From a virus: DNA of 45,554 bases. The number at the start of each line of letters is the position of its first letter. The first letter of the stretch is position 1. The stretch covers positions 1-45,554 of IMG/VR virus record IMGVR_UViG_3300035180_000831; one strand, written 5' to 3'. A program made the position numbers and the translations under genes. This document shows, piece after piece, positions 22,811-44,139 of this stretch. The notes beneath the pieces were generated by a model. That model ran no database searches and was not told the origin of the DNA. It saw only the letters and a program-made list of their open reading frames with translations.

Positions 22811-22983
22811 AAAACATAGTATTCTTTAACATCATAAAAGAAAATGATAAGTGGCGATTATCTGGAAGAGTAGAGAGCGAGAGTATTAGCGAAGTACACG
22901 ATACCAAAGACGGCGCTAGAGATCGAGCCATAGAGATATTACAAGCCTATAAATACACGAAAGGAAAAGATGAGCAGAACTAA
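22807..22983 (+). CDS. Early hypothetical protein (58 aa)
   Basis: The ATG at 22807 overlaps the previous stop, and the TAA at 22981-22983 lies within the following gene. The product begins MKNIVFFNIIKENDKWRLSG and ends with a charged helix (DRAIEILQAYKY). Small genes with this beta-then-helix layout are common in early phage operons. No family is recognised. Confidence 0.55.
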   Translation: MKNIVFFNIIKENDKWRLSGRVESESISEVHDTKDGARDRAIEILQAYKYTKGKDEQN

Positions 22984-24199
22984 AGGAGCAAAGAACAAAC
23001 CCAAATTATTAAATACAGAGGAAACAAACATGTCCGAAGTACAAGAAATACAAGAAGTAGCTAGTGCAACCATTACAGAAGGAAAGGTTAAAATAGCAGA
23101 TTATGAATTGAGTATACAGACTAGAGAGCTTGATTATGTACCAAATGGGCAGAAGATAACAGGATATAACAACGAACTAAACAAATTAGCCTATGCAGTA
23201 GATAAGAATAAAGCAGTTTTGATGGTCGGTGAAACTGGAGTCGGTAAAACAGCTCTAGTCAGGTATATAGCACAAGAGACAAAGAACGGATTTAGACGCT
23301 TGAACTTGAACGGACAGACTACAGTTGACGAATTTGTCGGAAAGATTATGTTAAATGATAAAGGAACATTTTGGCAAGATGGTGTATTGCTTGATGCTAT
23401 GAGAAATGGCTACTGGCTATTACTTGATGAAATCAATGCAAGTCTACCAGAGATTTTGTTCGTATTACATTCATTATTAGATGATGATGGTATGGTAGTA
23501 CTAGCAGAGAAAGATGGCGAAGTAGTTAGACCCCATAAAGATTTTAGATTGTTTGCTACTATGAATCCAAGCGGTAGATATGTCGGAACTAAAGAGCTAA
23601 ACAAAGCGTTTCTGTCTCGTTTCCCGATTATCCTACAAATGGACTTCCCAGAAGAAAAGCAAGAACAGGATATTATCAAATTATACTCTAAGATAGACTC
23701 TAAAGTAGTGTATAACCTAGTTAGAATGGCTAACGATTTAAGATCTGCATATAAAAAAGGTGAGACTAATTTTATGTGTAGTACTAGAGACTTGATTAAC
23801 TTCGCTATGATAGCTCAAGACCTAGGTATATCCGAAGCCTTGCAAATGACTATCATAAATAGAACCGATGAAGAAGATTTGAAAGCCGTTTCCACTATCA
23901 CCAGTTTATATTTTGGCAAGACTGGTACAGCTACCAAGATAATTAACTATGAAGAAGAATATAACCGTATATCTTTAAAAGCCAGAACTAATGTAGATAG
24001 CTTTATGAGCATACTAGGTAGTGTTAGTTCTAGCCAGAAATATACTAATATGTTTATGGTCAATCTAAAGCCGATTGTTAACTCTGGATTTATAGGCGAG
24101 AATATCAAGACACAATTTGATGGAGCATATAAAGCTATAGAGGAAACAGAGAAAATGTGCAATACATTTACTAGCGAAATATCCAAGTGGAGGGAATAA
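22970..24199 (+). CDS. MoxR/CbbQ-type AAA+ ATPase
   Basis: A 409-residue AAA+ ATPase. Walker A is GETGVGKT (87-94) and Walker B is LLLDEIN (150-156). The sensor-1-like ATMNPSG near 195 is followed by NKAFLSRFP carrying the arginine finger region. The N-terminus (SRTKGAKNKPKLL) looks like a DNA-binding or linker extension; an internal ATG at 23030 with GAGG is a possible alternative start. MoxR-type ATPases act with VWA proteins to remodel or metallate partners. Here the partner is the next gene. The target is unknown. Confidence 0.85.
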   Translation: MSRTKGAKNKPKLLNTEETNMSEVQEIQEVASATITEGKVKIADYELSIQTRELDYVPNGQKITGYNNELNKLAYAVDKNKAVLMVGETGVGKTALVRYIAQETKNGFRRLNLNGQTTVDEFVGKIMLNDKGTFWQDGVLLDAMRNGYWLLLDEINASLPEILFVLHSLLDDDGMVVLAEKDGEVVRPHKDFRLFATMNPSGRYVGTKELNKAFLSRFPIILQMDFPEEKQEQDIIKLYSKIDSKVVYNLVRMANDLRSAYKKGETNFMCSTRDLINFAMIAQDLGISEALQMTIINRTDEEDLKAVSTITSLYFGKTGTATKIINYEEEYNRISLKARTNVDSFMSILGSVSSSQKYTNMFMVNLKPIVNSGFIGENIKTQFDGAYKAIEETEKMCNTFTSEISKWRE

Positions 24200-25861
24200 A
24201 TGAAATATACACAATCTGAACTAGGTGTAACAATTGCCGAAGCTCAAAGTATAGCTAGTGTGCTATCTGGACAGCTAAAGGTCAATATAAAAGAGGGTGA
24301 AGATTGGCGATTTGACTATGATAGTAAAAAAGTAAGCTATCGTAGGGAAGATTTAGCTACACTCACTCAAGAAGATGTGATAGCAAATCTACTACATGAA
24401 ACTGGACACGCTAAGTATAGCGAGAATCCTGTTATGTTTAATTATGGAACTATACCAAGCTATCATATACTAGGCACAAAGATGGTTATTGATATGATAG
24501 AAGATTTTAGAATGGAGGATAAGCTAAGGAGCGAGTATCCCTATGCTAAAGACTATTTACCAGAATACTCATTTAAGACCAAATGGTATTTTGAACAATT
24601 AACCAAGAAATACGAAGCCGAAGCTAAAGAAAAAGGACAGCAACCAAATGTGCCGAAAATTATACAGTATTTAAATCTAGCGTATTCTTATATCTCAAAT
24701 GAAGCAGTATTGATGATGGGTGAAACTAATCTCGAAGTTACGGAAGCTATAAAAGCTACCAAGGAAAAGCTAGATGATATACGCAAGACAGCAGCAAACA
24801 ATCTATATATTGTCAAAAGAATCAGAGAAGAAATCTATCCCGATATAAAGAAGCTATTTGAAGATAGTAAGGACGAAGACAATAAAGACCAGAAGGGAGA
24901 TCCAAAACCAGGAGATGACAAGAAAGATGACAAGAAAGATGACAAGAAAGATGACAAGAAAGATGACAGTGATAAACCAAAAGAAAAAGATAAAAAACCC
25001 AAGCCAAAAGATGGCTTTAGTAACAATGAAACACAGAAGATAGTTAAAGAGTTTAAGCAAGTCATGAGTAAAGCTGAAGAGGAAAAACATCGTGCTTATG
25101 ATGATTTATATCCCGAAATAAAGGGAATGATAAATAAGACAGCCGATAAAATGCGCAAAGTATTGACTGATAAGGCTTTTGATAAGTTTGAAGGCAAGTT
25201 TACATCTGGAAAGAAGTTGAATCCTCGGAGAATGTATAAGCCAAGACTAGGCGATTATAGAGTTTTCCAACGAGTTGTTGAAGCCACAAAGAATGATTAT
25301 GAGTTTGCACTGGTAGTAGACCTATCTGGAAGTATGCGTAGTCCTGGAAAGAAAATAAAAGAAGCTATAAAAGCCAGTATGCTATTTGCTCATGTATTAG
25401 ATAAACTAGAAATACCATATATCATATATGGATTTAATGAATATATGTTTGAATATAAAACATCAGAGCAGAAATATGATGTAAAACTAGGCAAGAAAAT
25501 AGCTGATGGTATGTGGAACGAAGTTTATCACCTATCACCAAGCAAATATGGAGCAGCATACAACGATGATGCCGAAGCAATATATCGAGTTAGTAAAATG
25601 CTACAGTCAAGCAGTCATAAGAAAAAAATAATGATGGTATTCTCAGATGGAGAGCCTGCCCCAAGTTATACGCACAATTATTTGCATGAAGATGTAGAAC
25701 ATGAGGTCAAGAAAGCCACTAAAGCAGGAATAAAAGTAATTGGTATAGGTTTAGAGTATGGAGAACTCGAAGAGTACTATCAAAACTGCGTAATTGTGAA
25801 CGATACATCAGAGTTACCAGATAAAACAATCAAAGTTATGAAAGAAATGTTAAAGAAATAG
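24200..25861 (+). CDS. Metallopeptidase-like/VWA protein (CobT-like partner of the AAA+ ATPase)
   Basis: A 553-residue protein with an N-terminal zinc-protease-like HETGH (66-70) and downstream IEDFRMED (about 106-113). A very charged linker contains a 12-bp DNA repeat coding DDKK units (residues about 238-256). A C-terminal VWA domain has an intact MIDAS motif DLSGSM (about 373-378) and late conserved FSDGEPAP. The gene starts immediately after the ATPase stop, the usual arrangement of a MoxR-VWA pair (NorQ-NorD, CbbQ-CbbO, CobS-CobT types). Its role in this phage is unknown; remodelling of a host machine is possible. Confidence 0.8.
   Translation: MKYTQSELGVTIAEAQSIASVLSGQLKVNIKEGEDWRFDYDSKKVSYRREDLATLTQEDVIANLLHETGHAKYSENPVMFNYGTIPSYHILGTKMVIDMIEDFRMEDKLRSEYPYAKDYLPEYSFKTKWYFEQLTKKYEAEAKEKGQQPNVPKIIQYLNLAYSYISNEAVLMMGETNLEVTEAIKATKEKLDDIRKTAANNLYIVKRIREEIYPDIKKLFEDSKDEDNKDQKGDPKPGDDKKDDKKDDKKDDKKDDSDKPKEKDKKPKPKDGFSNNETQKIVKEFKQVMSKAEEEKHRAYDDLYPEIKGMINKTADKMRKVLTDKAFDKFEGKFTSGKKLNPRRMYKPRLGDYRVFQRVVEATKNDYEFALVVDLSGSMRSPGKKIKEAIKASMLFAHVLDKLEIPYIIYGFNEYMFEYKTSEQKYDVKLGKKIADGMWNEVYHLSPSKYGAAYNDDAEAIYRVSKMLQSSSHKKKIMMVFSDGEPAPSYTHNYLHEDVEHEVKKATKAGIKVIGIGLEYGELEEYYQNCVIVNDTSELPDKTIKVMKEMLKK
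24914..24968 (+). repeat. Four 12-bp coding repeats (GATGACAAGAAA)
   Basis: The tandem GATGACAAGAAA units are in the linker of the VWA protein and give charged DDKK repeats. They probably expand and contract by slippage, so linker length may vary between relatives. Confidence 0.8.
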
Positions 25862-35633: not shown

Positions 35634-36353
35634 TTAAAATGGCAAATCTTCTACATTAACTGTATATTCTGGTTTATTGAGTGTCTCTCTGATTTTAGCT
35701 TTAGAGGCTTCTATAGATTCACTAGCTCCTGGTACAGTATTGGATTCTTCTACTGCTACAGCAGAGTTTTCGTCTTTTGAACCATAGATATATGATTCAA
35801 GCGATTTCTCTTTGAACTTCTCTCTGGCTTCTAATTCAAGTGCGGTTAGTGGAATACTATCAGAGGAGTCTACGGTATCTACTGAGTAATATCCTGCTCC
35901 TGGGCGTTCTGTACGAGTAACTATAAAGTCACGCTCTAATACTTTAGTACCGTTTTTAGCTTTTACCTCAATCTCATCACGAACTGATTTACGAGTCTTG
36001 AAAATCTGGAACTCTTGAGTATCACGATTGATAATCGGATAGTAGAAAGTTACAGTAGCCTTGTATGGATCTGCTAATTTATGAGCTTCATCCATAGCCT
36101 TTTTATCTTCTTTGTTTTTAACACCATTGAGAATATCAAAATACTGTTCACAATAACCACATGGGCTTCCTTCGTTTACACGAGTACAGGCGATTCTATC
36201 CCATTCTTTATCACCTTTTTTGATAAAGTGCATACCATCGTAGTAAGGTGCTGCTAAAATGCGGAACTTGATAGTTTCGTCTTTTTTCTTGAGTGAAACA
36301 AATAAATTACTTGACCCTATCTTTACCTCTTGACCAAAATCTGCTGTTGGCAT
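35634..36353 (-). CDS. Single-stranded DNA-binding protein-like
   Basis: A 239-residue protein. It has a beta-rich N-terminal part and a possible zinc site (C56, C65, C68 in ACTRVNEGSPCGYC). A long acidic tail ends in EDLPF, the SSB-type C-terminal peptide. T4 gp32-like proteins also carry a zinc site and an acidic tail, so a replication or recombination SSB role is likely. It is the first gene after the minus promoter at 36402-36430, with GGAGG before ATG 36353. Confidence 0.65.
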   Translation of the reverse strand: MPTADFGQEVKIGSSNLFVSLKKKDETIKFRILAAPYYDGMHFIKKGDKEWDRIACTRVNEGSPCGYCEQYFDILNGVKNKEDKKAMDEAHKLADPYKATVTFYYPIINRDTQEFQIFKTRKSVRDEIEVKAKNGTKVLERDFIVTRTERPGAGYYSVDTVDSSDSIPLTALELEAREKFKEKSLESYIYGSKDENSAVAVEESNTVPGASESIEASKAKIRETLNKPEYTVNVEDLPF

Positions 36354-36467: not shown

Positions 36468-36498
36468 TTGACAGCTATACTGATAGTGGGTGTATAAA
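36468..36498 (+). promoter_or_regulatory. Plus-strand promoter for the zinc-finger operon
   Basis: TTGACA (36468-36473), 17 bases, then TGTATA (36491-36496), which overlaps TATAAA (36493-36498). The start would be near 36503, giving a leader of about 145 bases that contains the structured element at 36548-36645. It is divergent from the SSB promoter, about 38 bases away. Confidence 0.65.
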
Positions 36499-36547
36499 TA
36501 CATAAGCATCACCATTTTAAGGTGCATTCCTACGGCAAGAGGGGTAA

Positions 36548-36645
36548 TAGTATAATTAGCGAAACACCTGTTTTCGCATGGTAAGGTAAAAAAAACTTGC
36601 CAAAGTCTAATTATACTAGCCTTGCCAGCCGAAAGCAGGTGTTTT
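36548..36645 (+). promoter_or_regulatory. Structured leader able to sequester the Shine-Dalgarno site
   Basis: TAGTATAATTAG (36548-36559) pairs perfectly with CTAATTATACTA (36607-36618). Inside lie hairpin A (CGAAA, loop CACCTGT, TTTCG at 36560-36576) and hairpin B (TGGTAAG with CTTGCCA at 36596-36602). The loop and stem AAACACCTG (36562-36570) can pair nine bases with CAGGTGTTT (36636-36644), which holds the AGGTG site of ATG 36648. CTTGCCA is repeated at 36621-36627, giving a competing partner for hairpin B. This is a switch-like design; no known riboswitch consensus is recognised. Confidence 0.6.
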
Positions 36646-36647
36646 GT

Positions 36648-36908
36648 ATGCAATACAACAAGTGTTATCAATGTCAAATTAAAGACCAAGTACTCGGTAC
36701 TTCTTTTTGTAGTGTCGAGTGTAAATCAAAATACTTAGAGTCTCACAAACAAGTAAAGTACAGAGATAGTTTTGCCGAAAAATTAGCCAAGTTTAAAGAG
36801 ACACACTTGGCACATAATACAGAACATAATACATCAGATGAAGAAGTAGTTGAATATATGGATAAGTTATTTAAATCAGTACCACAATTAGAAAATACAG
36901 AGAAATAA
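36648..36908 (+). CDS. Zinc-finger protein (86 aa)
   Basis: The start ATG 36648 (MQYNKCYQCQIKDQ) has AGGTG at six bases; an upstream in-frame reading lies within the leader and is not credible. CYQC, then FCSVEC (about residues 6-28) is a zinc-binding treble-clef-like arrangement. The C-terminal half is charged and helical. Its expression is probably governed by the structured leader. Confidence 0.7.
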   Translation: MQYNKCYQCQIKDQVLGTSFCSVECKSKYLESHKQVKYRDSFAEKLAKFKETHLAHNTEHNTSDEEVVEYMDKLFKSVPQLENTEK

Positions 36909-36910
36909 TT

Positions 36911-37063
36911 ATGGGAAAACAACAAAAACTTTTAACGGAAAAATCAATATCTAGACAACAACCATTATTAAGTAGCGACAGGGAGTCAAATCTGGTTATG
37001 TCGCCTCACAGAGAAGAACCAGACCGTCACGATGGACTGAAGGGAAAGTTGCTGTCCGTTTGA
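36911..37063 (+). CDS. Possible small protein overlapping a structured RNA (50 aa)
   Basis: An ORF starting MGKQQKLLTEKSISRQQPLL and ending in GLKGKLLSV, with no clear ribosome site. It overlaps the pseudoknot region, so it may be an accidental ORF in an RNA, or the RNA may be its mRNA structure. Given as an alternative to the non-coding reading. Confidence 0.3.
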   Translation: MGKQQKLLTEKSISRQQPLLSSDRESNLVMSPHREEPDRHDGLKGKLLSV

Positions 37064-37245
37064 TGGGTATGTCCGACTAGAGAGAGAACAGAGTCGGAGG
37101 AAGAAAGAACATAGGATAACAAATAAGACTATGTTCACCTGTTTACTACGCCACTAGACCGACAATCGGAAATATCTAGTTAAGTAATCTTTTATGGGGG
37201 TAGGGGGGGAGCCGTCCTCCGGACATCAGCTAAAACTTGCTATCC
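36970..37245 (+). ncRNA. Candidate novel structured RNA with H-type pseudoknot and hairpins
   Basis: An H-type pseudoknot: GCGACA (36975-36980) pairs with TGTCGC (36999-37004) and TCTGGTT (36991-36997) pairs with AACCAGA (37017-37023), with a one-base inner loop. Then come TCCGACT/AGTCGGA (37072-37078/37092-37098), GAACATAG/CTATGTTC (37107-37114/37129-37136), and ACTAGA/TCTAGT (37153-37158/37175-37180) enclosing CCGA/TCGG. A G-rich stem lies at about 37195-37245. The G+C is higher than the surroundings, and no protein domain explains it. It does not match group I introns, tmRNA or RNase P as I know them. Confidence 0.5.
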
Positions 37246-37323
37246 CTTACTATATATTACTAAGTTATATTGTTATATAAATGTTATAGATATATTTTAT
37301 AGATATGTTATTGATATTGCTAT

Positions 37324-37545
37324 ATGAAGTATTTTTGTAAGGTATGTGGTAAAACAACTCAAGATAAACGCTTTAAGAAGTACTGTAGTGAGGTCTGTAG
37401 GATAAGAGGTATGACTAATAAGCTAGTTATGGATAAGATACAAGAGGATTGGAAAAATGGATTCGACCTAGAAGCCCTAGAAACCTGGAAAAAAGAACAT
37501 CAACCAAGAGTAGACTCTAATGGTGAGACTTGGATTTCTTTGTAG
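37324..37545 (+). CDS. Zinc-ribbon protein (73 aa)
   Basis: The N-terminus MKYFCKVCGKTTQDKRFKKY followed by CSEVC forms a C-x2-C and C-x3-C zinc site. The remainder is helical and polar. It is in the same operon as the zinc-finger gene at 36648 but separated by the structured RNA. Its 3' end overlaps the convergent MazG gene by 46 bases. A DNA- or RNA-binding role is likely. Confidence 0.65.
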   Translation: MKYFCKVCGKTTQDKRFKKYCSEVCRIRGMTNKLVMDKIQEDWKNGFDLEALETWKKEHQPRVDSNGETWISL

Positions 37546-37898
37546 AACTTATCTTTCCACAAAGTATCATGTACCCAAGCTCTTGATTTATCCCTATCCT
37601 CTTTATAATCACCATCTTGAAAATCGCCTGCCGTATATCTACTCATGTTGTAAGCGACCTTTTCTCTTACCTCGGAATCTACATCAACACCTAATATATT
37701 CGCCAAAGTATAAGCAAAGATAAACACATCCGCTACCTCTTGAGCCATATCTTTATTATCACCATTCATATGAGCGTCTTTTAGTTCATCTACTTCACCT
37801 AGCAATAGGTCTAAAGTAACTTGAAATGTATTATTAGTCATCATCACAGGTCTATCTTTGAGAAAATCGGCAACCAACTGCTGTACACCTTCTTTCAT
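37500..37898 (-). CDS. MazG-like nucleotide pyrophosphohydrolase
   Basis: A 132-residue enzyme of the all-alpha NTP-PPase superfamily. The metal-binding EVDEL (35-39) and EVADV (54-58) form the E-x2-E and E-x2-D pairs. It may hydrolyse non-canonical or host nucleotides, or lower (p)ppGpp indirectly, as proposed for phage MazG. It is the last gene of the late block and overlaps the convergent zinc-ribbon gene. The start ATG at 37898 follows AGGAA. Confidence 0.75.
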   Translation of the reverse strand: MKEGVQQLVADFLKDRPVMMTNNTFQVTLDLLLGEVDELKDAHMNGDNKDMAQEVADVFIFAYTLANILGVDVDSEVREKVAYNMSRYTAGDFQDGDYKEDRDKSRAWVHDTLWKDKFYKEIQVSPLESTLG

Positions 37899-39525: not shown

Positions 39526-42500
39526 TTAGTATGGCTTGAACCACAGCTTCTTTCCAGACAGCTTAGGTGTGTATCCATCCTTTCCTGTAATTTTATCTAA
39601 TAATCCATTATCTCCTAAACTTGCTCTCTTTGTATTCAAAAGAGTTGATATTGGTTTGTAATTGCCCATTTTTATATCATTATTAAATAATGACTTAGCT
39701 TTAGAGAAGGTCATAGTCTTGCCACTATTAGCAAAGGATTTTTTAACATAATACTTTTCATTTATTTCATCATATTGGATAGCTTTAAGCATATCTTTCT
39801 CATTCTTAGATATGTTGTTGTTATCATAAAGGTAGTCAATCATATTTGGAGTAACCAGTGCTTTATCAGCTATAGTCTTGCGTGACTTCATAAGTAGTTC
39901 TACAGCCTGTTCGTGGTCTAACTTATCAATTATAGGTATTAGCTCTTGTAGTCTAGTTTGTTCCGCTTCACTAGCAGAGCGATAGTAAGATATATCTTCT
40001 TTTGAGGCTCCAGATGTTTCCATAACCTGGTCTTTTATAATTTGTGGCATATCTTTGTTATCAAGAACACTATCTATGGTTTTAAAGGCTTCTACCCTTT
40101 GTTTTAAGTCTCTTGTTTTGGCATTACCATCTGGGAAGTATCTAGCGATAGTTTCTTCTGTTTTTGGCTCATATCCCATATTTACTCTAGTATCATAGTC
40201 GCTTCTAAAATCCTTCTTTTCTTGAGGAGTTGAGTCTTTTGTTGGGATTGGAAATTCAACTGCATTTTTATTACCAAATAATCCATCAAAGAATCCTGGC
40301 TTATTAGTTGTTGTAGCACCCAGTTTCATTTTCTCTATTTCTGCTTTCCTAGCTTCCCTTGCTTGAGAATCAGCATAAAATTCACTCTGTTTATCTGGAG
40401 ATAGAGTTTTATAAACAGATGACTCGTTTTTAGTAAGACTTGGAGATTTATCTAGATTATTTATATATTCTTTTCTCTTGGAATCATAAGATTTACCAAA
40501 TAAAGTACCCCTTACAGTATCAAGTACACCAGTTCCTACAGGGCCAGCTACATTTCCATTTATAGTTTTATAATATCCATCTGCTCTAGCCTGGAGATAT
40601 GGTAATGTCTTATTTAATATCTGACCACCAGCAGGTACAGCTAGATTCTCAGTTTTTTTAATTTGATCTAGTCTATATTTCTGTTCATAGGTTTTTTCTT
40701 CATCTGGAGTAGTAAAGTCTCCCTTTAGAGCAGATTCACCATAGGAATATAGAAGTTTCATAGCAGGAGATAGAGGAGTTCTATCAATCCATCTCTTTTG
40801 ACCGCTTTCGTCTTTTTCTACTAGATTCTTATACATATCAAGAAATGTGTTTGTTCCACCTCCGACAAATGCAGTTCCTAGAAGTAGTTTATTGGCTACG
40901 GCTTCAGCTACCTTACCAGCGACATATTTCTTTAGATATTTAGCATCACCCTTATCTCCACCTATTGCACCCATCATCTTGTCATAGGCGATAACAGTGT
41001 CTTTAAGGGAGTATTGTACAAATTGAAGGATTGTCTTTACATATTTATTCTTAAATAATCCAATGTCTTGTCCTTTTCCAAACTTGATAGCATATTCATC
41101 TTGTTTTCCCATAACAAACTTATCTAAATCTTCTCCAGATAAACCTTTTTTCTTTCCTTGTCCTACAAAAGCAGCTAGGGCTATATTATCTTTTTCATGT
41201 TCACTTGAGTCAAACATCCACATAAGAGATTTATCAGCTTTAGAGAGTATATTACTTATTGCATTTCTCTCTGATTTTATTCTTTCACCAGCCTCAGAAG
41301 CCTTCGATGAGTTATATCCATACTCTACAGTATAGTCATGTTTTCCAGCATCAACGATTGCATTCTTAAAGACATCACCATCAACTAGAGAAGAAACACG
41401 ATTTATCTCTTTTAGATTACTATAAGCTGGCATTGGGTTTAGTCCCAAAGCTCCTCTGGCTGTTATTCCTCTGATAGCAGACAAAATCTTGTCTATTTTA
41501 GTGTCTACTTTAACATCATTACCAACATATTCTTCAAATATGTTATCTACTAGCTTTTTAAGTCTATTATCTTTAAACTCGGCATTTTTAACATTCTCAA
41601 AGTACTTATTGATTGCAGCAGCTTGAGCTTCTTTATAGTTTCTACCAGTCAAAATAATTAAAGCTTCATCTTTATTCATGTTATCTGGTTTACCACCTGC
41701 CATAGCTACCAACTCTTCTTCTGGCATATTAATCAAAGACTCCATATATCTACCATTTTCTACCTGAGCCTTTTTAAAGTTCCATAGGAAGTCGTTATAA
41801 AATTTCTTATCTGTGTTAGCTTCTGATCCAAGTTGGTCTATAGAACGGAATAACCTACCATCTGTTTTTATATTTTCATAAACATTTTTTTTCTCAGGAG
41901 CTTTAATCTCTCCAGAATCTATTTTTGCTTTAATAGAATCAGTAATACTAAACTTGGTCTTTTTCTTTAACATATCAACTAATCCAGTATCTTTTGCTTC
42001 TTCCTGGTATACATTCTTGGAATCATTTGCGATTTTAATATATGCTTGTTGAGTCTTATCTACATTGCCAATAGCTTCATTAGCATAATCAACTAGAGAA
42101 CGAGGGTCTTTAATGTAATCAGTCAATTTACCAGTACGAGCTTTGGTATAGGAAGCAGTAAGAACATCACCAGCCGTTTTATCTTGTTTATTAGCAATCA
42201 TATCCTCAGAAACACGATGGAAGTAGTTTTGGCGTTCAAGAGGAGTAACATTTTGTCTAGTAGTTCCCACATCAGCCATAGTGTCAAAGAACTTCTTAGT
42301 TGTTTTAGCAAGATCTTGAAGTTTTGGATCTACATTACCTGATTCTACTTGGTCTACAAAGTCAGAGAAATTAACACCACGAGCTTTTAATTCTTCATCT
42401 AAACTATTCCCAAATGCTCCAACAAATTTAAGTGCTTGTGCTTTACCTTCGGGTGTTTCAACTTTGTTGGAAACCTTTTTAAGTGTTTCAAGGTCTGAAT

Positions 42501-44139
42501 CTACTGTATTTTTGTCATATTTGTATGTTTCTGGTGTTATTTCTGATTTATCCACCTCTGGTTGAGGCTGTACAATCGGTTCTACGGCAGGTTTAACAGG
42601 TTCAACGATTGGTTGTACCTGTTTACCTGGCTCAGTTTGGAGTAAACTGTCGAAATAACCATTATCCTCTGTTTTAACAGGTTTCACTTCGGGTTTTGAG
42701 AAGTTATCAGTACGCAAAGACTTGGTAATGTAACCCTCCATTGATTTAACTGGAGTTGGCGAATCTTTGGCATAAGAATAAGCGGAATATATCTTTTCTG
42801 GAGAATAACCCTCATTGAGTTTTTGTGTAACGAATACATCAGATAGACCAGTTTTCTTAACTAATTCAGACTTTTGGAAGTCAGCGTTCATTTCAGCATC
42901 TGGCTTAGCATTTGGTTCAGTCGAAACTTGGAACTTTTTATTAGCCAATATATCACTTAAAGAAGTAGGTTCGGTTTCATTTCTCTGTGCCCTTACTTCT
43001 TTTACTATGGCTAGTGGGTCTTGTGTAACTTTATACAGTTCATCTACTGCACCAGGACTTAGTTGAGTAAGTTCAGCTACTTTCTTTTTTTCATTAGCAA
43101 TACGATCTTCTTCTTTTGAGAACTCCTTACTATTTAACATCTCATCGGAAGTTTGGAATATCTTTTTTGGTTCAGGTGCTTGCATCTGAGTTTTTAGTTC
43201 AGGTGTTTGCATCTGAGTTTTTAGTTCAGGTGTTTGCATCTGAGGTTCAAATTGTGGTTCAACTACTGGATCTAAAGGAACTTCTGGTTTATTGTCCATA
43301 GCATTAAAACCAGGAGCAATTGTACCAGCAGCACCAGTTAATCCACCAAGTACTAGATTAGAACCCATGTCAGGTAAGAAACGCTTTGCATAGTTATTAA
43401 AGTAATTTCCACCATTTTCTACAGTATCTGCACCAGCGAATACACCAGTTTCAAGAGGAGATTGTAATCCATGTTGAACTACATTTTTAGCAATAAATGA
43501 AGCTGCTTTAGGCAAGAAAGATTTAACTCCATCTGCACCAGCAACACTCATAGCATTTTTAGCTTGAGTAATACCAGCCTCAGTAACAGGAGCTAGATAT
43601 TTAGCTACACTAGGAAATTTATTGGCGGCATAAATCATAGCTTTATCTGTAGCAGAATTAGTATATGGGAATAACCATGAATACTTCTGTCCTTGACTAG
43701 CACCCTCAAGAGTATTTTGGAGAGTTATATTCTTACCAGATAAAGCATTAAGTAACATACTAGAACCAGCACCAAACAATGAACCATTAACTTGATTTTT
43801 AAGAGAATTTAATATACCTGCACCACGAGTAATAGGATTAGCTATAGTACCAATAGCCTGTCCTGTACCATAAGATAGAAAATCAAGAGGAGATTTAGGT
43901 TGATATGCTTTTATGGCATCGTTTTGTGCAAATCTATCTATTCCAAGATTTCCAGTTGCACCACCAGTATATCCCTTGCCAAGAGCAGCAATAGCACTAA
44001 CACCAGGCATAGTTTCTTGATTAAAGTTTTGAGCTAACCAGGAGTTTGTATTCTTAGCAAAATCTGAGTTGTATCCTGCGACACGCAAATCATTTATTGT
44101 ATTTTTTGCTGAGTTTAATAAGTTATCAAAGTATCCCAT
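39526..44139 (-). CDS. Large internal virion / DNA ejection protein
   Basis: A 1537-residue protein, the longest in the genome. The N-terminal 250 residues are Ala/Gly/Asn-rich with hydrophobic stretches. A Pro/Gln/Glu-rich linker follows, with TPELKTQMQ units at about 295-325 coded by 27-bp DNA repeats (43171-43245). The remainder is long, charged and helical, including LPRIEKM-like coils and an EEDLDKFVMGKQDEY segment. It resembles ejected internal core proteins of podoviruses. The ATG 44139 has GGAGG upstream beside a hairpin. Confidence 0.65.
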   Translation of the reverse strand: MGYFDNLLNSAKNTINDLRVAGYNSDFAKNTNSWLAQNFNQETMPGVSAIAALGKGYTGGATGNLGIDRFAQNDAIKAYQPKSPLDFLSYGTGQAIGTIANPITRGAGILNSLKNQVNGSLFGAGSSMLLNALSGKNITLQNTLEGASQGQKYSWLFPYTNSATDKAMIYAANKFPSVAKYLAPVTEAGITQAKNAMSVAGADGVKSFLPKAASFIAKNVVQHGLQSPLETGVFAGADTVENGGNYFNNYAKRFLPDMGSNLVLGGLTGAAGTIAPGFNAMDNKPEVPLDPVVEPQFEPQMQTPELKTQMQTPELKTQMQAPEPKKIFQTSDEMLNSKEFSKEEDRIANEKKKVAELTQLSPGAVDELYKVTQDPLAIVKEVRAQRNETEPTSLSDILANKKFQVSTEPNAKPDAEMNADFQKSELVKKTGLSDVFVTQKLNEGYSPEKIYSAYSYAKDSPTPVKSMEGYITKSLRTDNFSKPEVKPVKTEDNGYFDSLLQTEPGKQVQPIVEPVKPAVEPIVQPQPEVDKSEITPETYKYDKNTVDSDLETLKKVSNKVETPEGKAQALKFVGAFGNSLDEELKARGVNFSDFVDQVESGNVDPKLQDLAKTTKKFFDTMADVGTTRQNVTPLERQNYFHRVSEDMIANKQDKTAGDVLTASYTKARTGKLTDYIKDPRSLVDYANEAIGNVDKTQQAYIKIANDSKNVYQEEAKDTGLVDMLKKKTKFSITDSIKAKIDSGEIKAPEKKNVYENIKTDGRLFRSIDQLGSEANTDKKFYNDFLWNFKKAQVENGRYMESLINMPEEELVAMAGGKPDNMNKDEALIILTGRNYKEAQAAAINKYFENVKNAEFKDNRLKKLVDNIFEEYVGNDVKVDTKIDKILSAIRGITARGALGLNPMPAYSNLKEINRVSSLVDGDVFKNAIVDAGKHDYTVEYGYNSSKASEAGERIKSERNAISNILSKADKSLMWMFDSSEHEKDNIALAAFVGQGKKKGLSGEDLDKFVMGKQDEYAIKFGKGQDIGLFKNKYVKTILQFVQYSLKDTVIAYDKMMGAIGGDKGDAKYLKKYVAGKVAEAVANKLLLGTAFVGGGTNTFLDMYKNLVEKDESGQKRWIDRTPLSPAMKLLYSYGESALKGDFTTPDEEKTYEQKYRLDQIKKTENLAVPAGGQILNKTLPYLQARADGYYKTINGNVAGPVGTGVLDTVRGTLFGKSYDSKRKEYINNLDKSPSLTKNESSVYKTLSPDKQSEFYADSQAREARKAEIEKMKLGATTTNKPGFFDGLFGNKNAVEFPIPTKDSTPQEKKDFRSDYDTRVNMGYEPKTEETIARYFPDGNAKTRDLKQRVEAFKTIDSVLDNKDMPQIIKDQVMETSGASKEDISYYRSASEAEQTRLQELIPIIDKLDHEQAVELLMKSRKTIADKALVTPNMIDYLYDNNNISKNEKDMLKAIQYDEINEKYYVKKSFANSGKTMTFSKAKSLFNNDIKMGNYKPISTLLNTKRASLGDNGLLDKITGKDGYTPKLSGKKLWFKPY
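43171..43245 (-). repeat. 27-bp coding repeats in the internal virion gene
   Basis: TTCAGGTGCTTGCATCTGAG-type units repeat 2.8 times with little change. They code a Gln/Met/Pro/Glu linker (TPELKTQMQ). This is probably a flexible spacer and may vary in copy number. Confidence 0.8.

Follow-up and report, generated by a model that had tools for sequence, protein, structure and literature searches.

The 45.5-kb virus record IMGVR_UViG_3300035180_000831, which was analysed whole and is called the window below, comes from an unclassified, prokaryote-infecting virus whose SU10-like portal and distant large terminase indicate a tailed phage. Among sequenced phages the best terminase matches listed have about 29-34% identity, and the virus therefore has no close sequenced-phage relatives. 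In one part of the window (22970-25861, + strand) an AAA ATPase-like protein, MoxR-like by sequence, is followed by a CobT/VWA-domain protein, the latter matching PF11775 (3.5e-19). The region studied here is flanked by the gene for a gp32-like SSB carrying a CxxC motif (35634-36353, - strand) and by a MazG-like gene (37500-37898, - strand); a promoter candidate for the SSB gene, TTGACA-17-TAGGAT, lies at 36430-36402. On the + strand between these two genes are two small ORFs, at 36648-36908 and 37324-37545, whose cysteines are zinc-finger-like, and the first of these ORFs, which starts at ATG 36648, runs divergently from the SSB gene with the leader analysed here between the two. The small ORFs are themselves separated by a stretch of about 400 nt (36912-37320, + strand) that has no convincing ORF, and the core of this stretch (36925-37224) has a G+C content of 43-46% against about 35% in the surroundings. 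On the + strand the fold z-score against shuffles was -3.1 for 36905-37325 and -2.3 for 36965-37225, while the - strand of this region folded no better than shuffles (z -0.3) and an Rfam search of 36912-37320 gave no match; judging from these fold predictions, it is possibly a structured non-coding RNA.

The features of the leader and its gene are collected in Table 1. The first-pass annotation had called the gene at 36648 a zinc-finger gene, a reading that is plausible by the spacing of its cysteines but modestly so, since a Pfam MYND match scores 17.3 bits, under the cut-off of 27 bits, and the codon usage of the gene falls at the low end among the phage's real genes. The protein showed no resemblance to a transporter, a biosynthetic enzyme or a small hydrophobic toxin. 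Its Shine-Dalgarno (SD) lies six bases upstream of the ATG, and SD-led initiation is the norm in this record, as AGGAGG-type SDs are common before its other genes. The promoter candidate upstream of the leader is weak, since it was missing from a scan limited to 16-18-nt spacers. A scan for intrinsic terminators listed none at the leader structure, and a search for tRNAs and known non-coding RNAs found none.

Table 1. Predicted features of the leader and the gene that it precedes
Feature	Position	Strand	Remarks
Candidate promoter	36469..36499	+	TTGACA ... TATAAA, 19-nt spacer (usual 16-18); read from sequence
5' strand of closing stem P1	36548..36559	+	12-bp stem, SD-open fold
5' arm of SD-burying hairpin	36559..36587	+	anti-SD arm
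Hairpin A	36560..36576	+	SD-open fold; loop holds anti-SD CACCTG (36565-36570)
Hairpin B	36579..36602	+	SD-open fold; TGGTAAG with first CTTGCCA copy
3' strand of closing stem P1	36607..36618	+	
3' arm of SD-burying hairpin	36619..36647	+	repeats CTTGCCA and CGAAA (partner strands of hairpins B and A); holds the SD
Shine-Dalgarno AGGTG	36637..36641	+	fully paired in minimum-energy fold, pairing probability ~1.0
Predicted small zinc-finger protein, 86 aa	36648..36908	+	cysteines C-x2-C-x11-C-x3-C

Two folds are predicted for the leader RNA. In the first, TAGTATAATTAG (36548-36559) pairs with CTAATTATACTA (36607-36618) in 12 of 12 Watson-Crick pairs to make P1, which together with hairpins A and B forms a three-way junction with the SD single-stranded. 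The motif CTTGCCA occurs at 36596-36602 and again at 36621-36627, and all the elements that the first-pass annotation had listed, the 12-bp stem, the two hairpins, the CACCTG loop and the double CTTGCCA, were found in place. The nine-base pairing that it had described between the loop and the ribosome site, AAACACCTG (36562-36570) with CAGGTGTTT (36636-36644), is also present but was understated, being a segment of an 18-bp helix (36559-36576 / 36630-36647) that is joined through a 2x2 internal loop to a second helix of 9 bp (36579-36587 / 36619-36627), 27 pairs in total. This 27-bp hairpin, missed before, is the dominant predicted fold and buries the whole SD, positions 36636-36641 having a pairing probability of about 1.0 in the stable fold. 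The long dyad comprises 22 Watson-Crick pairs, five G-U pairs and the internal loop; of its seven non-Watson-Crick positions, five read as G-T in the + sense and can thus pair as G-U in the mRNA strand only, although two of the five are terminal pairs, which are favoured by where the helix is taken to end. Since the repeats interleave, P1 and the long dyad cannot both form in full, and the junction and the hairpin, which share strands, are mutually exclusive.

Comparison with chance separated the ordinary from the unusual in this arrangement. P1 is the sole perfect 12-nt inverted repeat with a gap of at most 60 in the window, and since order-1 simulations expect a mean of 0.37, P1 alone is unremarkable. 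The long dyad is the sole 25-nt inverted repeat in the window in which 21 or more of the 25 positions match, a class for which 60 simulations gave a mean of 0 and a maximum of 0. The fold z-score was -3.9 on the + strand and -1.5 on the - strand, and the leader had the lowest G+C-corrected fold energy of 1298 tiles covering both strands. In a conditional shuffle both arms of the long hairpin were fixed and only the flanks and the middle were shuffled (n=500); the real SD-open ensemble was better than all 500 shuffles (z -3.7) and the real pre-emergence fold better than 498 of them (z -3.4), figures that are somewhat generous since the tests were designed after the structure had been seen. When pairs were permuted within the helices, 8 of 500 permutations matched the pre-emergence energy and 28 of 500 the SD-open energy. 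Taken together, the arms-fixed shuffles and the helix-pair permutations point to the alternative fold as an independent feature and not a by-product of the hairpin. Bistable SD-sequestering mRNA leaders are a functional kind and not a sequence family, and two of their marks are predicted here: the SD is paired in the stable fold, and a second, exclusive fold frees it with an energy reached by none of the 500 flank shuffles.

The minimum-energy fold, with the SD buried, was calculated at -53.3 kcal/mol and the best SD-open fold at -41.1 kcal/mol, with an ensemble gap between the buried and SD-open states of about 11.3-11.6 kcal/mol. At 20-37 C the buried state is favoured over the SD-open one by 11-14 kcal/mol, so that spontaneous switching without a factor is unlikely once the RNA has folded. 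In equilibrium predictions for the growing transcript, the junction was the fold of all lengths ending at or before 36640, and the buried hairpin took over at 36641, when the SD emerges. The barrier on the direct path from junction to buried hairpin came to about 28 kcal/mol, which is an upper bound, and with such a barrier the RNA might also stay trapped in the junction for long, leaving the direction of control uncertain. An RNA thermometer was considered and rejected, simple melting being unlikely when opening the SD costs 8.6-16 kcal/mol across 55 to 10 C.

Relatives of the leader were sought by several routes. In agreement with the first-pass statement that no known class was recognised, Rfam gave no match at the gathering threshold, where no known aptamer model matched either; the sub-threshold matches were weak ones to eukaryotic miRNA and snoRNA models. 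No homologues of the zinc-finger protein were found in viral contigs, GTDB genomes or phages, no leader DNA in phages and plasmids, and no exact leader words in viral contigs, and single-sequence covariance models of both folds, searched in the relatives' records, matched the window only. With the SSB as query, a single-sequence search gave none and a search by alignment gave homologues of 34-42% identity in four contigs; neither the leader nor the zinc-finger gene stands beside any of these SSB homologues. The large terminase led to seven contigs, the nearest relatives being 58-73% identical. In the terminase and SSB relatives the leader and gene were absent beside the SSB where the region was readable, and the SSB-MazG interval was unconserved among the relatives read; since several of their records are fragments, this absence is not strong evidence. 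A search for relatives with the 1537-aa protein at 39526-44139 gave none. One 21-kb contig (IMGVR_UViG_3300037010_000519, L002), a record without the leader region, has a terminase 100% identical to that of the window and by this identity is probably the same virus in another sample.

On balance, we read the leader of the 36648 gene as probably a bistable cis-acting translational switch that is off by default. We infer that the leader is transcribed and that its RNA would fold first into the three-way junction, because all strands of the junction are made by base 36618. The 3' arm (36619-36647), emerging next, would bring the ribosome site and, for hairpin B as for hairpin A, a second copy of the partner strand; it would invade the junction, take P1 apart and pair into the 27-bp hairpin, closing off translation by burying the SD. 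The repetition of CTTGCCA and CGAAA in the downstream arm suggests such a strand-displacement layout. The contact between loop A and the SD (CACCTG/CAGGTG) would be the natural first contact of the invasion; it can form with P1 intact and also hides the SD, and the resulting loop-SD pseudoknot would be a folding intermediate at most. The earlier picture of a switch-like leader, in which strands compete and the SD can be hidden, thus stands, but the pseudoknot it invoked is not needed, as the nested 27-bp hairpin suffices. Translation would be limited to a brief period while the RNA is being made, unless a factor held or restored the junction or cut the long hairpin. RNase III, a protein, an antisense RNA or transcription timing may each serve as the opener, and as a first guess RNase III or another double-stranded-RNA-acting protein would be the likeliest factor. 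By analogy with lambda cIII and N (PMC2777011, PMC8708148) and with the metastable leaders of MS2 and aapA (PMC6733600), we favour default-off control with opening or prevention by a factor acting in trans, RNase III being the first to consider. A bolder and unlikely proposal is that the leader represents an undescribed phage switch, in which a downstream segment carries repeats of the strands paired in two hairpins upstream of it, strand exchange closes the ribosome site during transcription, and a phage or host protein, possibly the zinc-finger protein itself, resets it. If the switch is real, it would be a compact natural case, clearly two-state in design, of translation timed by strand exchange in a DNA virus of a poorly sampled group, and its small zinc-finger protein, perhaps costly or stage-specific, would be one that must be kept off.

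Other explanations account for part of these observations. The 27-bp form could itself be the functional one, as a one-state RNase III processing hairpin of the T7 or lambda N leader type, cleaved so that the message is freed or stabilised, with the junction being incidental. The stem is the strongest in the window and, at 18 + 9 bp with its 2x2 internal loop, is long and irregular beyond the roughly 20 bp at least that mark an RNase III site; a stem of this kind, its 27 pairs broken by a small internal loop and placed immediately ahead of a phage gene, is broadly similar to known phage RNase III sites such as T7 R1.1 (PMC8708148), and RNase III also acts on two lambda mRNAs, those of cIII and N (PMC2777011, PMC8708148). 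However, a pure processing site has no need of an alternative fold that beats chance with the hairpin fixed, and a model of the element matches only this place (its two strands) in the record, with no second copy, so that we consider this explanation possible but doubtful. An element acting at the DNA level seems improbable to us. In it, a regulator, which may be the zinc-finger protein or a host factor, would bind an operator present in two inverted copies, CGAAACACCTGTTTTCG and, on the opposite strand, CAAAACACCTGCTTTCG; the 17-bp motif does occur twice, inverted and 15/17 identical, with no further copy in the window when up to three mismatches are allowed (expected 0.08), and the region sits between divergent genes. 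Yet the G-U compensation and the better folding belong to the + strand only, the second copy overlaps the SD exactly, the 12-bp P1 and the CTTGCCA duplication would have no role, and about 60 bases or more separate the candidate promoter from the copies downstream of it.

That the structure is non-functional, a recent local inverted duplication or a product of chance, is in keeping with the finding of no relative that carries the leader and with the unconserved SSB-MazG interval; it is highly improbable in view of the 25-nt dyad that no simulation reached, the arms-fixed tests, and a hairpin in exact register with the SD. The metabolite or ion riboswitch with a pseudoknot that the first-pass annotation had suggested would explain the three-way junction, the strand-exchange design, the SD sequestration and the 6-9-base loop-SD pairing. 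We regard it as very improbable, as Rfam gave no match, the gene is unlike that of a transporter or biosynthetic enzyme and the SD is hidden without a pseudoknot; control by a ligand found no support, there being no Rfam match and, in the searches made, no relative of the leader or the gene to show a conserved aptamer core. Finally, leader-peptide attenuation of the erm type was rejected, because the ORFs at GTG 36522 (20 codons, with no coding signal) and ATG 36578 (3 codons) are without a properly spaced SD.

The leader is thus an orphan, a well-supported predicted RNA structure of the generic two-state translational kind, and we compare it with known systems in function only, with no homology claimed. 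Translational riboswitches have mutually exclusive helices and an SD within the expression platform; exclusive helices and SD sequestration are predicted here too, whereas the leader has no known aptamer and no Rfam match. The leader of lambda cIII mRNA is known in two conformations, and the likeness lies in a phage mRNA with a translation-inhibitory structure. In cIII mRNA, binding of RNase III alters the conformation and relieves the inhibition (PMC2777011); no relationship of sequence or gene to cIII was shown, and the contrast here is between a junction with a 12-bp stem and a 27-bp hairpin upstream of the start. The type I toxin mRNAs hok and aapA form metastable co-transcriptional hairpins before a final fold that buries the SD (PMC6733600), as would the present leader, but the 36648 gene is unlike a small hydrophobic toxin, and the 5'-3' long-distance pairing, 3' processing and antisense RNA that aapA needs were not seen in this leader. 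In the maturation-gene leader of MS2, a transient fold permits translation before the final, cloverleaf-like inhibitory fold (PMC6733600), and the predicted order of a transient fold preceding a final inhibitory one is the same here; MS2, however, is an RNA phage in which the cloverleaf is the final form, whereas in this DNA virus the junction would be the early one.
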